Source: Hyphomicrobiales bacterium (lineage in GTDB: Bacteria > Pseudomonadota > Alphaproteobacteria > Rhizobiales > Beijerinckiaceae). Taken from it: a stretch of 44,773 nt of DNA. The position numbers and the translations under genes were made by a program. This document shows, piece by piece, positions 6,068 to 36,260 of this stretch (its first letter is position 1; each line of letters starts with the position of its first letter). The stretch spans positions 1 to 44,773 of the forward strand of contig JAPLOV010000143.1 in assembly GCA_026400565.1 (NCBI GenBank), written 5' to 3'. The notes under the pieces are model-generated. The model saw nothing but the letters and a program-made list of their open reading frames with translations, made no database searches and was not told where the DNA came from.

Positions 6068-6783
6068 CCGCTCATCCCGATACCATTGCGCTCGTCGTCG
6101 AGGATCTCGGCAAGAGCTTCACGCTGCACATGCATGGCGGCACCCGGCTGCCTGTCGTCTCGCAGGTCGGCTTTGAGGTGCATGCCGGCGAGTGCGTCGT
6201 GCTCGGTGGGCCGTCGGGCGCGGGCAAATCCTCGATCCTGAAAATGCTCTATGGCAACTATCTTGCCGGAAGCGGGCACATCCGCGTGCGCCATGGCAGA
6301 GCACTGGTTGATATCGTCGAGGCCGAACCGCGCGCAATTCTCGACATCCGCCGGATGACGCTGGGCTATGTCAGCCAGTTCCTCAGGGTCATCCCGCGCG
6401 TGCCGGCCATCGAGATCGTCGCCGAACCAGCCCTTGCGGCCGGCGTGGAGAGAACTGCCGCGCTGGAGCGGGCGAGCGGCCTGCTGCACGCGCTGAACCT
6501 GCCCGAACGGCTGTGGCGCCTGCCGCCTGCCACCTTCTCGGGCGGCGAGCAGCAGCGCGTCAACATCGCCAGGGGCTTTGCCGGTGAGCACAGCATCCTC
6601 ATCCTTGACGAGCCGACGGCATCGCTTGATGCCGTCAACCGCGAGGCCGTCATCGGCTTGATGGCAGCCCGCAAGGCGACGGGCACGGCCTTTGTGGGCA
6701 TTTTCCATGATGAGGAGGTCCGCGCCCGCGTCGCCGACCGCATCATTGATGTCTCTGCCTTCGCCGCGCGGGAGGCCGCATGA
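6064..6783 (+). CDS. phnL: PhnL, ABC-type ATPase of the C-P lyase system
   Basis: A 239-residue ABC ATPase with Walker A GPSGAGKSS (about residue 49), signature FSGGEQQRVNIARGF, Walker B ILILDEPTASLD and switch His in FHDEEVRARVADR. PhnL is needed with PhnGHI for the first C-P lyase step and can dock on PhnK. The LKMLYGNYLAGSGHIRVRH segment after Walker A is typical. It overlaps phnK and the following acetyltransferase gene by 4 bases each. Confidence 0.92.
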   Translation: MTAHPDTIALVVEDLGKSFTLHMHGGTRLPVVSQVGFEVHAGECVVLGGPSGAGKSSILKMLYGNYLAGSGHIRVRHGRALVDIVEAEPRAILDIRRMTLGYVSQFLRVIPRVPAIEIVAEPALAAGVERTAALERASGLLHALNLPERLWRLPPATFSGGEQQRVNIARGFAGEHSILILDEPTASLDAVNREAVIGLMAARKATGTAFVGIFHDEEVRARVADRIIDVSAFAAREAA

Positions 6784-7490
6784 ACGCGCCAGCGACAACG
6801 GCGCAGCGCGCCACGCGCCTGTCGGATGACCCGCTGATCCACCCAACGGCGGTGGTCAATGGCTGCACGATCGGGCGCTACACGGAAATCGCCGAGCGAT
6901 GCACGGTGACCGATTCAGGCCTCGGCGACTATTCCTACATGATGCGCGAGTGCGAAGTCTGGACCGCAACCATCGGCAAGTTCGTCAACATGGCCAGCCA
7001 CGTGCGGATCAACGCCACCAACCATCCGACCTGGCGGGCGACGCTGCACCACTTCACCTACAGGGCTGGCGATTACTGGGCGGATGCCAGCCATGAGCAG
7101 GAGTTCTTCGACTGGCGCCGCCGTCATGCCGTGATCATCGGCCACGATGTCGGGATCGGCCACGGTGCGACGGTCCTGCCGGGCGTCACGGTCGGCAACG
7201 GGGCCGTGATCGGGGCCGGCGCGGTTGTGTCGAAGGATGTTGCTCCCTACACCATCGTTGGCGGCGTGCCGGCAAGGCTGATCCGCGAGCGCTTCGATGC
7301 GGCCACCGGGGCGCGCCTCGATACGATGGCCTGGTGGGACTGGAGCCACAACAGGCTGCGCGACGCACTCGACGATTTCCGGAGCCTCGACACCGAGGCG
7401 TTCCTCAGCAGGTACGAGCAGGGTGTTCCACGGCTACGTGGTCACCGAGAACGGGCTGATCGCAGAGGTCGGCGAGGGCCGCGCACCTGA
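6780..7490 (+). CDS. Phosphonate-operon hexapeptide-repeat acetyltransferase, with an atypical C-terminal tail
   Basis: A 236-residue left-handed beta-helix acyltransferase of the type found in phn operons (the DapH/GlmU-like 'phn_thr' family). Hexapeptide repeats run from about residue 20 (IHPTAVVNGCTIGRYTEIAER) and again at IIGHDVGIGHGATVLPGV, followed by the trimer-interface VGGVPARLIRERF. A plausible role is acetylating an aminophosphonate or a pathway intermediate; the substrate is unknown. Homologues normally end near FLSRYEQ (about residue 210). Here the frame runs on for 26 arginine-rich residues that are the phnM sequence read out of frame, which points to loss of the original stop codon by a small deletion around 7415-7425. 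Confidence 0.8.
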   Translation: MNAPATTAQRATRLSDDPLIHPTAVVNGCTIGRYTEIAERCTVTDSGLGDYSYMMRECEVWTATIGKFVNMASHVRINATNHPTWRATLHHFTYRAGDYWADASHEQEFFDWRRRHAVIIGHDVGIGHGATVLPGVTVGNGAVIGAGAVVSKDVAPYTIVGGVPARLIRERFDAATGARLDTMAWWDWSHNRLRDALDDFRSLDTEAFLSRYEQGVPRLRGHRERADRRGRRGPRT

Positions 7491-31808: not shown

Positions 31809-33023
31809 TCAAGTCCTGGCAACCCCCATCAGGTGGCCCAGATCCTTGAAGAAGATGCGAACATGCGCCATCGGGTCTTTGCGCACCAGCTCCTTGTTCA
31901 TGTAAGCCTCCCAGGTCAGGCGCTGCACGTCCTTGTCCTTGCAGATGATCACGAAACGCTCGCGCAGCTTGTCGTTGCGATACCAGAACCACTGCATGAT
32001 GCCGAGGATCCAGAAGACCTTGCCATGGGCCTTCATGAAAGCCTTGCGGGCTCCAGCCAGCGCGCGCGCATCCCTGGTGACCAGCGCCTGATGCACCGCA
32101 TCGGCTGCGAACCGGGCACAGGCCATGGCGTAGTAGATGCCTTCGCCAGATGAGGGCGCGACCACGCCGGCTGCATCGCCAACCACGATGATATCGCGGC
32201 CATTGTCCCATTTTTTCAGCGGCTTGAGCGGGATCGGCGCGCCTTCCTTGCGGATGGTCGCGGCCTCTCCGAGGCCGAGATGCTGGCGCAGGCCTGCCAC
32301 GGAGCCGCGCAGGGAAAAGCCCTTGTTGGCGCTGCCGGTGCCGATGCTCATGGTATCGCCATGCGGAAACACCCAAGAGTAGAAATCCGGCGAGAAACGC
32401 CCATCATAGTACACGTCGCAGCGCTTGCTGTCATAAGCCGGCGTGCCATCTGCCGGAGCACGCACGATCTCGTGATAGGCAAAAACAAACGGAATTTTGT
32501 CGGCGCCGGGAATGGCAGCGCGCGCCACACCTGACACGGCACCATCTGCGCCAATCACCATGCGCGCTCGGACGGCGCCTTCCAGCTGCTTGTCACCAGC
32601 TTCGCCGCCTGCCGCCTTGGGCGTGTAGTGCACGACCGAGACACCATCGTCATCGCGGCTCAATCGCTCGAAACTGCCACGCCTGCGGGTGGCGCCCTGG
32701 GTCGCGGCGCGCTCACGTAGCCATTCGTCGAAGCTCTCGCGATCGACCATGCCGACAAACCCGCCGGTATCGATCGGCATGTCGACGGACTTGCCGGATG
32801 GCGGGATCATCCGGGCGGACGAGATTCTTGCACACAGCAATTCGTCCGGGATGCGGAAATCGCGGATCAAACGGGGCGGGATCGCACCACCGCAGGGCTT
32901 GATGCGCCCGGCCTTGTCAAGCAGAAGGACGCTGTGACCCTTGGCGGCCAGATCGGCTGCAGCAGTGGCACCGGCGGGCCCACCGCCGACGACGACGACA
33001 TCGAAGGTCTCGTGAATACTCAT
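31809..33023 (-). CDS. bchP: BchP, geranylgeranyl reductase
   Basis: A 404-residue FAD enzyme that reduces the geranylgeranyl tail of bacteriochlorophyll to phytyl. N-terminal FAD motif VVGGGPAGATAAADLA, the KPCGGAIPPRLIRDF segment, FAYHEIVRAP and GDAAGVVAPSSGEGIYYAM are all as in the family. ATG 33023 overlaps the upstream BCH2-family gene (ATGA). Without a chlorophyll synthase (bchG remnant only) its substrate would depend on a BchG encoded elsewhere. Intact. Confidence 0.95.
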   Translation of the reverse strand: MSIHETFDVVVVGGGPAGATAAADLAAKGHSVLLLDKAGRIKPCGGAIPPRLIRDFRIPDELLCARISSARMIPPSGKSVDMPIDTGGFVGMVDRESFDEWLRERAATQGATRRRGSFERLSRDDDGVSVVHYTPKAAGGEAGDKQLEGAVRARMVIGADGAVSGVARAAIPGADKIPFVFAYHEIVRAPADGTPAYDSKRCDVYYDGRFSPDFYSWVFPHGDTMSIGTGSANKGFSLRGSVAGLRQHLGLGEAATIRKEGAPIPLKPLKKWDNGRDIIVVGDAAGVVAPSSGEGIYYAMACARFAADAVHQALVTRDARALAGARKAFMKAHGKVFWILGIMQWFWYRNDKLRERFVIICKDKDVQRLTWEAYMNKELVRKDPMAHVRIFFKDLGHLMGVART

Positions 33024-34396
33024 GTGGATTGCTCCTGGTTCTGGGTGAGCCCGAGGCCCTGACTCTGGGCAAGAGATAATGCTGTTTGGGGTGGAGAATC
33101 TGGGCCGAGCGCAGCGATCCGTCCGGCCAGCCAGGCGGCCACCAGAAACAGCACGGCCTCGCCGGTGAAGACGCTGGCATAGGCAAGGAAGGGGGAGCCG
33201 CTCAACCATTTGGCAACATCGACCGCCCCCGCCCCGATCAGCCCGCCTGCGCCCATGGCCAGCGCCTGACCGGCGCCCCACAGGCCCATGCGCGTGCCTT
33301 CACGTTCGCCGCGCCCGCTGGATGCAAGCAGCATCATCGATCCGATGGCCGACGCCGCATAAATGCCGTTGGCGATGCCGAGTGCAAAGACGTTGGCGCG
33401 CAGGGGCCAGGCGGGTCCGATATTGGAAGCAACCACCAGCGCCAGCAGAACGGTGGCGGACAGCACGCAGCCGGCCATGGTCCAGAAGGCAAGCGAACCG
33501 AAACGGCCCCTGGCCAGCGGGCCTGCAATGAAGGCGACGAAGATCATCCCGATCAAGACGCCGCTGTTCTGGATGCCGGAGAGCTTGGTGGAACCGCCAG
33601 GCGTGTAGCCGAAGACGATGCCGGCGAATGGCTCGAGGATGAGGTCCTGCCCACTGTAGGCCAGCATCGAGATGATGATGAAAAGCGAGAACAGCCGTGC
33701 TTTCGGCTCGGCCCAGATTTCGGCAAGCGCTGCGCGGAACGGCATTTCATCGGCTGGCCTGTCGCGCAGCGTCATGGCGTCTGGCACGCCCTCGACGCCG
33801 ATCACCGCCAGCACGGAGACCATGAACGCCACCGAGCACAACACCGCCGCAACTGTGATCATGCGTTCATTGGAGAATGGATCGAGAAAGTGACCGGCAA
33901 TGCCCAGCCAGACCATTGTGGCTGCAGGTGCACGGCGCTCGGGCGCAACACGCTTGGCGAGCAAAACCAGCAACGACGTGCCCGCAGCCCCCGCCCCGAT
34001 CCCGATGAGGACAAAACCGGCAGCGGCCAGAGCAATGCCTTCGACCAAGTTGCTGGCCATCAGTGCGGTTGCGAGCGCTGCCACAAATCCGCCTGCCGCG
34101 AGCAGGGCCATCCCGCCGATGATCCAGGGCGTCGCACGCTGTCCCTTGTCAGCCCCAAAGCCCCAGCGCGGGCGCAGTATCTGCAAGGCATAATGCAAGC
34201 CGACAAGCAAGCCTGGCAGGATTGCCGGCAAGGCAAGCTCGACCACCATAACGCGGTTGAGTGTGGAAGTGGTCAGCACAAATATCGCACCGAGAGCCGT
34301 CTGCACCAGCCCGAGGCGGATGATGCCGAGCCAGCCCAGATCGGGGCGGCGGGCGGCTGATGCGGGTGAGCGGATCGACGGGGCTGTCTGTTCCAT
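33020..34396 (-). CDS. BCH2/PucC/LhaA-family pigment or light-harvesting assembly transporter
   Basis: A 458-residue, 12-helix major-facilitator-like protein of the PucC/BCH2 family, usual neighbour of bchG and bchP. N-terminal LGWLGIIRLGLVQTALGAIFVLTTSTLNRVMVVE, LGVAGHFLD-like WLGIAGHFLDP, GYTPGGSTKLSGIQNSGVLIGM and the GIANGIYAASAIGSMM block identify it. Members are thought to deliver bacteriochlorophyll during LH assembly. Its position between bchG remnant and bchP matches 'orf428' of Rhodobacter. It starts 8 bases after the bchG remnant. Confidence 0.9.
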   Translation of the reverse strand: MEQTAPSIRSPASAARRPDLGWLGIIRLGLVQTALGAIFVLTTSTLNRVMVVELALPAILPGLLVGLHYALQILRPRWGFGADKGQRATPWIIGGMALLAAGGFVAALATALMASNLVEGIALAAAGFVLIGIGAGAAGTSLLVLLAKRVAPERRAPAATMVWLGIAGHFLDPFSNERMITVAAVLCSVAFMVSVLAVIGVEGVPDAMTLRDRPADEMPFRAALAEIWAEPKARLFSLFIIISMLAYSGQDLILEPFAGIVFGYTPGGSTKLSGIQNSGVLIGMIFVAFIAGPLARGRFGSLAFWTMAGCVLSATVLLALVVASNIGPAWPLRANVFALGIANGIYAASAIGSMMLLASSGRGEREGTRMGLWGAGQALAMGAGGLIGAGAVDVAKWLSGSPFLAYASVFTGEAVLFLVAAWLAGRIAALGPDSPPQTALSLAQSQGLGLTQNQEQST

Positions 34397-34404
34397 GGCG
34401 GGCC

Positions 34405-34587
34405 TCAGAGCGAACGCAGGGCGAAGGCCGAAGCCAGCATGCCAAGCACGTAGCGCCTGGTGCCGATGGCGTTGTGCCAGGCGGCATGCTGGTGCGGATC
34501 AGACAGAAGCCGCGTTTGCAGCGACAGTTGCGCGGCCAGCAGCGCGGACCCGGACGAGGCGCTGGAATGAGCAAGGGCGTCTGACAT
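34405..34587 (-). pseudogene. bchG: bchG remnant: C-terminal end of bacteriochlorophyll synthase
   Basis: A 60-codon frame whose last ~45 residues (LLAAQLSLQTRLLSDP, then HAAWHNAIGTRRYVLGMLASAF) match the C-terminus of chlorophyll synthase, which typically reads '...DPRGRAPWYNATG..LYVLGMLVSAFAL'. The preceding ~250 residues, with the prenyltransferase Asp motifs, are absent. Neighbours fit (BCH2-family and bchP follow directly). An ATG at 34587 has no ribosome site but stands just behind a promoter-like sequence, so the little frame could be transcribed. The first residues MSDALAHSS might come from an original N-terminus joined by deletion; that is a guess. The fragment cannot be an active synthase. 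Confidence 0.8.
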
Positions 34588-34593
34588 CAACGA

Positions 34594-34634
34594 AAACTAC
34601 AATTGACGTTTTGATGCGTCAATTTGTGTTTACA
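34594..34634 (-). promoter_or_regulatory. Promoter with PpsR-like box upstream of the bchG remnant
   Basis: On the minus strand TGTAAACACAAATTGACG (34617-34634) is TGT-N12-ACG. Its TTGACG (34617-34622) is a good -35, 17 bases from TAGTTT (34594-34599) as a weak -10. An additional palindrome ATTGACG-N8-CGTCAAT spans 34602-34623. Initiation here would leave almost no leader before ATG 34587. It would drive BCH2-bchP-tspO-bchIDO-crtIB. Confidence 0.6.
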
Positions 34635-34680
34635 CCTACTTGCCTGTGCGAGTTGCCGCAGGGATGCCGCAGGGCAGGCC

Positions 34681-34863
34681 ATGGGTCGTGACGGGCGCAA
34701 TGATGTGCGGCTGATCAGGGCAGACAGCGTGCTGTGAGATGGATCGCGCTGCGCCTTCGTTGCTGATCGCCGGTCACTGTTGGCGGATTCGAACCATCTG
34801 GCGGCGGTTGAGAGCTTGCGCTTCATGCCGTTGTTCCGGGCGGCGCTGGATGGCATGCGCTGA
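34681..34863 (+). pseudogene. Fragment of an SGNH/acyltransferase (OafA-like) C-terminus
   Basis: In frame on the plus strand: VRLIRADSVL, a TGA (34735-34737) where the family has Cys, then DGSRCAFVADRRSLLADSNHL and RFMPLFRAALDGMR before the stop at 34861. This resembles the end of SGNH-domain acyltransferases, which read like 'LCdg.rC....dgrpLY.DdnHLs..Ga..l.PLF..AL', including the catalytic Asp-x-x-His (ADSNHL). The rest of the gene is missing and a nonsense codon interrupts it, so it is a relic. It fills the gap between ppsR and bchG, where parts of the photosynthesis cluster are usually found. Confidence 0.5.
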
Positions 34864-34893: not shown

Positions 34894-36260
34894 TCAGTCG
34901 TCGCGGATGAGATCGCCGATGCCGAAACGGTGGAGCTTTGCATAGAGCCCCTGGCGGCTGAGGCCAAGCATCTCGGAGGCCGACGCCCGGTTGTCGCCCG
35001 TGAGTTCGAGGGCCGCTTCGATGCACAGCTTCTCGATGATGTCACTGGTCTCGCGGACCAGTTCCTTGAGCGGCACGCGCCCAACAAGTTGCTTGAACTC
35101 CTCGGCCGACCGCGGCAGCGCCGACGGTGCCGCCATCTCGGTGCCGGTCCGGCCCGGCGGCCTGATCAGGAAGCCGATGTGGTCACCCTCGGGCCCATCG
35201 ACACCAACAGCGGAAACCTCAACATTGTCGACCGCGCCATAGACGCCTTCAGCGACGCTTTGAGCACGCCGAAATCGACCCCGACGCGGCCGAGCCACTG
35301 GTCAAGGTTCTGGCCGATGGCGGCATGCAATCCGATCAGACCCGTCAGGTCGAGGAAAGCGGTATTGGCGCTCCGGATGACGCCATCGCCGGTTGTCAGG
35401 ACGAAGGCATCGGGGAAACGCTCGATCACGCTGTCGACGACCTTGGCCGCGACAGGCGAGGCGTCTGTCCGATCGGGGCCGGACAGCAGTCGCAGGAGAA
35501 AATAAGACGAACCATCCTGCCGGAAAAGCGAGACATGGACATTGACCGTTTTCCCGCCCTCAGTGAGCCGCAACGTCGCCGGCATAGCGAGCGCACCGCT
35601 GGCCGCCACGGCGATGGTCTCCTGCAATGCGTCCCCGCCCTTGTCGACGAAAACGCTCTGCAAGGTGCGCCCGCTGATGCGGTTCTGCGGAACCCCGAGC
35701 AGCGCAAGCGCTGCAGGATTGGCTTCCGAGATGCGGCGGCCGGTGGCATCCGCGATCAGGATCGGCTCAGATGTGAGCTGAAACAGCACCCGGTACCGCG
35801 TATCAGCCGCACGCAGCCGGCTGTACTCGCGCTCCATCGACTGCTGGAACTGGACAAGCTGCTGCTGGAGGGCGGCAAGGGCCCGCAGATCGCGCCCGAT
35901 CGCCAGCACCTTGCCGTCATCATCGACCCTTATCGCCGAATAGCGCAACGGCACCGTGGCGGTACCAGCATGAACGATGTGGTTGATTTCGCGCAGGCGG
36001 CCTGGAAGGCCTGCCACCGCGTCAGCCAGCAATTGCTGGCCCTTGTTGCGGCTGTCAGGCGCGAGCGTGTCGAGCCAGGGCCGGCCCAGCCAGTCTCCGA
36101 ACTCGGAAGGCAGCCGCGCTTCGGTTGCGAGCGACACGTCAATGACGGTTCCGTCACGATCCATCAAGATTGCCACATCCGCACTGGCCATGACCATGCG
36201 AGCGGCGATTGCCGGGTCGATATGGACCATCGCATTCGACGGATGGCCGATCTTCTTCAC
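34894..36260 (-). pseudogene. ppsR: PpsR/CrtJ, redox-light repressor of photosynthesis genes, frameshifted before its HTH
   Basis: PpsR is the PAS-PAS-HTH repressor that binds TGT-N12-ACA. The 5' frame (start GTG 36260 or ATG 36230) covers an N-terminal domain (ASADVAILMDRDGTVIDVS), the coiled linker (LQQQLVQFQQSMEREYSRL) and two PAS domains (RVLFQLTSEPILIADATGRRI; VIERFPDAFVLTTGDGVIRSA), then leaves phase near 35245-35262 and stops at 35166. The 3' frame resumes with EGVYGAVDNVEVSAVGVDG and ends in the Fis-type HTH (ALELTGDNRASASEMLGLSRQG). Compared with known PpsR about ten residues are missing at the join, so this is a ~30-nt deletion not divisible by three. As written, the product would lack the DNA-binding domain. 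Confidence 0.9.

Follow-up and report, generated by a model that had tools for sequence, protein, structure and literature searches.

The window, the whole stretch of 44,773 nucleotides analysed here (contig JAPLOV010000143.1 of a Hyphomicrobiales bacterium), contains a 60-codon relic of the bacteriochlorophyll synthase gene bchG (34405..34587, reverse strand; stop codon TGA at 34402-34404). The relic is followed on the same strand by bch2 (33023..34396), which encodes a 458-aa protein of the PUCC/MFS family and whose ATG stands 8 nt past the relic stop. A GAGG sequence overlaps this stop and may be enough as bch2's own ribosome site. The bchP ORF (31812..33281, reverse strand) encodes a geranylgeranyl reductase that matches TIGR02023 with 493 bits from residue 94 on. 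The gene order downstream of the relic is bch2, bchP, a TspO-like gene (which scores under the cut-off of its model), bchI, bchD and bchO. Upstream lie ppsR and a gene for a B12-binding protein, which we take to be PpaA. The remnant is thereby located between ppsR and bch2-bchP, as described in the earlier note. Two reaction-centre genes without stops are present in the window genome.

The ppsR gene (34894..36260, reverse strand) is split over two frames. Relative to the intact 468-aa gene of a sister species (G033), it has a 40-nt gap near position 35246 that shifts the end of the HTH region into the other frame. Elsewhere in the window genome, the PpsR model gives weak matches (E-values of 2e-4 or worse). 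An AT3/SGNH acyltransferase gene is represented by a scar in which, by comparison with G033, only the 3' end is left (34694..34860, forward strand). In G033 this gene has 689 codons and lies between bchG and ppsR. Parts of a similar acyltransferase gene are found at two contig ends in G026, a genome of the same genus.

The relic was identified by its similarity to the end of BchG. Residues 14-59 match positions 267-312 of the 315-position profile PRK07566 (E-value: 6.6e-11) and residues 14-58 match positions 238-283 of 283 in TIGR01476 (E-value: 3.8e-5). The score against PRK07566 is 41.9 bits, below the cut-off of 313 bits for the full-length synthase, and the NDxxDRxxD catalytic region is absent. 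Because this profile match is combined with the neighbours bch2, bchP and ppsR, the ORF can be classified as a bchG remnant in the native bchG position. The earlier note held that only the C-terminal ~45 residues of bchG were left. The C-terminal match agrees with that description, but 16 native N-terminal codons are also present ahead of the 44 C-terminal ones.

At this locus bchG is intact in G026 (C134:780-1688), where the protein begins MSDARVHSSASSRSAL, compared with MSDALAHSSASSGSAL in the relic. By blastn against G026, window positions 34300-34543 correspond to the 3' end of bchG and beyond, and positions 34539-34663 to its promoter and 5' end, with ~5 bases of the window common to both pieces. 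When they are joined at the common GCGCTG, the missing middle is 723 nt relative to G026. A value of 726 nt is possible, the relic being one Leu codon shorter than the G026 parts, and both values are multiples of three. The junction is placed at approximately 34535..34545 (reverse strand, GCGCTG region) from blastn and direct comparison of the relic with G026, the exact join being uncertain by one Leu codon. An internal deletion of ~723 nt that leaves the reading frame intact has taken out the middle of native bchG, which bears out the earlier proposal that the catalytic part was lost to a large deletion. The same 60-codon relic is present in G033, in a region that is 94-96% identical, and so the deletion is most likely older than the split of the two species.

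The C-terminal part of the relic is identical to G026 at 35 of 44 residues. Where G026 agrees with one of the two sisters, the changed residues are D30G in G033 and R32H, Y38H and T44R in the window. Between the window genome (G000) and G033, the relic has a dN/dS of 0.90 (9 nonsynonymous and 4 synonymous changes). Both bch2 and bchP are open and under purifying selection (dN/dS 0.145 and 0.056, respectively). The relic differs in Fisher tests from these two genes taken together (19 nonsynonymous and 58 synonymous changes; p 0.0027) and from the complete bchG on contig 68 described below (p 0.0053). Selection on the relic peptide is relaxed and its evolution is almost neutral.

The consensus of the box bound by PpsR/CrtJ is TGT-N12-ACA. 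A box of this type, CGTCAATTTGTGTTTACA (reverse TGTAAACACAAATTGACG), with one core mismatch to the consensus (TGT-N12-ACG), lies at 34617..34634 and is followed after 29 nt by the relic ATG. An identical box precedes the relic in G033 and the intact gene in G026, where it is 25 nt from the ATG. The putative promoter region with its box has been preserved, as the earlier note proposed. Three strong TGTCAATT..GACA sites of the window supplied the scoring matrix and so necessarily head its ranking. The box at 34617 ranks 4 of 44,756 window positions, after these three training sites, and a site as good was found in 0 of 10 mononucleotide shuffles. The box is overlapped by an inverted repeat, TTGACG-N8-CGTCAA (34603..34622), a pattern that has no other exact match in the window.

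A homology search of the window genome with the contig 68 protein found three places: contig 68, C191 and the window relic. The contig 68 gene (G000:C68:6093-6974) is a full bchG encoding 294 aa without stops. Its product scores above both curated cut-offs, with 413.8 bits for PRK07566 (cut-off 313) and 350 bits for TIGR01476 (cut-off 212.3), and carries the NDxxDRxxDxxxxxxR motif (NDWYDRDVDAINEPQR), residues of which are reported to be essential in PMC9066304. The protein is 97% identical to its G033 counterpart, with a dN/dS of 0.091 (10 nonsynonymous and 34 synonymous changes). The earlier note considered the case that no other BchG is encoded, in which bacteriochlorophyllide could not be esterified and BchP would lack its usual substrate; this gene contradicts that case. 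Within the 610 nt upstream of the contig 68 gene there is no box comparable to that at the native site (best score -5.1).

The C191 match (C191:9277-9600) is a third bchG fragment, which cannot be a working bchG since its frame is broken by two stops and it spans no more than residues 186-294. It lies (L008 8161-9600) convergent with a gene for an NAD(P)-binding reductase, presumably bciA-like. The gene order on C191 is that of Roseiarcus (L052), but without the hydrolase described below. Contamination was considered as the origin of the extra bchG copies and rejected on the basis of similarity to G033 (94.8% over 13 kb for C68 and 95% over 5.1 kb for C191). The identity of C191 to G033 is weaker over positions 6200-7339 (86%) and for its bchG fragment (88%).

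A tree of 44 rows places the contig 68 BchG within a 15-row clade (support 99/94, the bootstrap being not fully settled). Besides the contig 68 and G033 proteins, this clade includes those of Methylobacterium, Beijerinckiaceae, Roseiarcus, Phreatobacter and four Bosea genomes (G028, G009, G031 and G019). The native-type bchG genes of Bosea (G026, G004 and G011) are outside it, in a 10-row group with support of 91/81. Judged from this tree, the replacing BchG copy is of a different clade from the native gene. A FastTree phylogeny was also built from 94 loci, consisting of the best 80 matches listed and 14 loci from relatives. The same clade there has 18 loci from 16 genomes (support 98). A locus was counted as being at the native place if ppsR lay within 800 nt, bch2 within 300 nt or bchP within 2 kb. 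Among these 94 loci, 17 of the 18 clade members are not beside any of the three genes; the sole member at the native place, L063, has a weak ppsR-like match. Of the 76 other loci in the set, 75 are near ppsR, bch2 or bchP, the remaining one (L105) being a contig of 5 kb. The term displaced is used here for a position away from the native place, and in G028 the distance from this copy (L054) to bch2 is no more than ~8 kb. A 40-row bch2 tree, some branches of which are long, requires at least seven switches between displaced and native, which may run either way. Displacement of native bchG by a BchG of another clade is well supported, and it has probably happened repeatedly.

Intact bchG genes from outside the displaced clade provide a reference for the native site. 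The distance from the bchG stop to the bch2 start is -8 to +10 nt in 44 of 51 such loci among the matches listed, and so a tight bchG/bch2 junction is the normal state. A box scoring at least 7 is found in 49 of 76 non-clade bchG loci among the matches listed. The first in-frame ATG is 28-31 nt past the box in 35 of the 48 listed non-clade loci in which this distance was measured, and the relic start is therefore most likely the native bchG start.

Native sites were examined at bch2 in all 16 displaced-clade genomes (the clade being that from the best 80 matches and 14 further loci). A full bchG is still present at the native site in one genome, Umea3 (L151); having both this gene and a displaced-clade copy, it may represent an intermediate state. 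The bch2 start was assigned in the other 15 by a blind rule and, in a variant, with a TTG picked by hand as the start in CoA8. Under the blind rule, 11 of the 15 have a PpsR-type box followed by a first ATG and a 28-112-codon ORF with its end between -4 and +8 nt relative to bch2; 12 of 15 do so with the hand-chosen CoA8 start. The ATG is 29-30 nt past the box in 10 of the 11 fitting stubs, and in G1coas the second ATG is at this distance. Of the four genomes outside the blind-rule set, MethLeaf99 has no stub at the native site. In BeijJr28 there is none before the first bch2 start; a second start is possible, with a 15-codon ORF that stops 8 nt short of it. The BeijRH23 ORF overlaps bch2 by 52 nt, or by 19 nt if a later start is taken. 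In CoA8 a 59-codon ORF ends at the hand-chosen TTG; the blind rule puts this end 37 nt into bch2.

Several of the stubs are recognizable as bchG. The G1coas stub is a BchG N-terminus (tblastn to BchG residues 14-45, E-value: 4.4e-6), and by eye the stubs of Roseiarcus (MRSPQPTPVLELLEPIT) and Phreatobacter (MNNPGAPDVLALSKPIAWW) resemble BchG N-termini. The G028-type stubs of four genomes (G028, G009, G031 and G019, with 31, 28, 28 and 29 codons, respectively) begin MTR and their upstream sequence is, by eye, like that of the intact G004 gene.

The proposed model for the native site, which we hold with slightly better than even confidence, is as follows. The middle of native bchG would have been deleted in frame in the common ancestor of the window species and G033. 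The contig 68 BchG, encoded beside a membrane alpha/beta hydrolase, would be the working enzyme that esterifies bacteriochlorophyllide. The native site would keep the bchG promoter region with its box, the start codon and a short ORF stopping at the bch2 start, and this stub would be retained as a translated leader of bch2-bchP. Its translation would deliver ribosomes to bch2 and perhaps protect the operon mRNA from Rho, allowing expression of bch2-bchP to outlast the loss of bchG. This role of the stub is inferred from the arrangement of the genes. A broader form of the model is offered tentatively, namely that one BchG lineage has repeatedly displaced native bchG in Hyphomicrobiales-type phototrophs and that selection may often have kept a 5' stub as a frame-preserved leader coupling the PpsR promoter to bch2-bchP.

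A serious rival to the leader reading is that native bchG was dispensable once a second copy existed and that the stub is an inert relic, which still has an open frame and a stop at bch2 because it was once coding DNA of a G+C-rich genome. This is a substantial possibility, although we place it below an even chance. The dN/dS of 0.90 is as expected of such a relic. After 13 random substitutions, the chance of no stop is 0.73, and so survival of the 60-codon ORF in these two genomes alone is unremarkable. The four of 15 displaced genomes that lack a fitting stub by the blind rule also favour an inert relic and indicate that the stub is not essential. Shuffle nulls for the individual genomes gave 0.013 for the window, 0.018 for G033, 0.04 for Ga0077556, 0.13 for Roseiarcus, 0.19 for Phreatobacter, 0.21 for G1coas, 0.27-0.34 for the four G028-type genomes, 0.34 for MethLeaf108, 0.30 for CoA8 (start chosen by hand) and 0.05 for BeijRH23, where the frame does not end at bch2. 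The end of the frame argues against inertness. Seven lineages on the bch2 tree bear stubs, and the frame ends at bch2 in five of them (blind rule) or six (hand-chosen start); at a chance of 1/3 per lineage, the probability is about 0.045 or 0.007, respectively, as calculated after the pattern had been seen. In addition, stub lengths among relatives within a group differ by whole codons (31/28/28/29, 112/101 and 42/54).

The remaining alternatives are given little weight. The 60-residue product might be a functional small membrane protein, since it is open in both sister species and contains the BchG C-terminus, but its nearly neutral evolution, the changes at residues shared with G026 listed above and the lack of an evident common peptide (by eye) among the stubs of other lineages make this quite unlikely. 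Still less probable is an assembly error in which the window is missing a full bchG actually present at the locus. The assembly is a draft of 267 contigs in which ppsR and the adjoining acyltransferase gene are also deleted in part relative to G033; however, the presence of the same relic in G033 makes such an error unlikely, and the search of the window's own genome found no full bchG other than the contig 68 copy. Loss of bacteriochlorophyll synthesis, to which the absence of native bchG might point, is the least credible of all, given the full and constrained bchG on contig 68, the two reaction-centre genes without stops and the purifying selection on bch2 and bchP.

The leader model can be compared with known systems. 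In xenologous gene displacement, a native copy decays while a copy from another clade is conserved, as is seen here for bchG. The present case differs in that the same BchG clade accompanies native loss in several lineages and in that the stub keeps its promoter region, start and junction. A translational-coupling leader is a short upstream ORF that ends at the start of the next gene. The relic stop likewise adjoins the bch2 start (gap of 8 nt), but the candidate leader here derives from the gene of a displaced enzyme. The locus also shares with the bchG-bch2(orf427)-bchP operon of purple bacteria its gene order, the close spacing of bchG and bch2 and a PpsR-type box, except that a 60-codon stub has taken the place of bchG, with the full gene at another site in the genome. 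The bchG-bch2-bchP order is also described in PMC5374385 and PMC10569730, and gene order or content in PMC10569730, PMC5374385 and PMC6798729. In a literature search on bchG displacement or pseudogenes, which covered few subscription papers, no title or displayed abstract describes such a case.

If the model is correct, the locus shows how an essential pigment gene is swapped with the regulated operon around it unbroken. The stubs (28-112 codons, from five or six lineages) form a natural series for asking whether dead genes persist as translated leaders. The absence of bchG from a photosynthesis cluster does not mean that phototrophy has been lost.

Genes adjoining displaced bchG were also recorded. 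A magnesium chelatase H gene is directly upstream of displaced bchG in G028 (profile-tested), and ORFs similar to magnesium chelatase H are directly upstream of it in G009, G031, G019, Phreatobacter (L055) and L057; the loci of the chelatase H-like neighbours are L029, L030, L034 and L035. Beside the contig 68 bchG is an alpha/beta hydrolase gene (Hydrolase_4; C68:7000-8490, L005), the product of which is, by eye, hydrophobic in its C-terminal half. The hydrolase adjoins displaced bchG in 11 of the 16 clade genomes (from the best 80 matches and 14 further loci). At an E-value of 1e-30 or better it is found in 9 of 61 relatives, all among the 14 that have a full BchG. Within the genus, it is present in 6/6 genomes with displaced bchG, 0/3 with native bchG and 0/28 without BchG. 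Outside the genus it also occurs with bchG at the native place (G037, G040, G060 and two Methylocystis loci). That the hydrolase is a pigment esterase is a guess. Ser141 (in GHSM) and His229 of this protein are invariant across 13 sequences.
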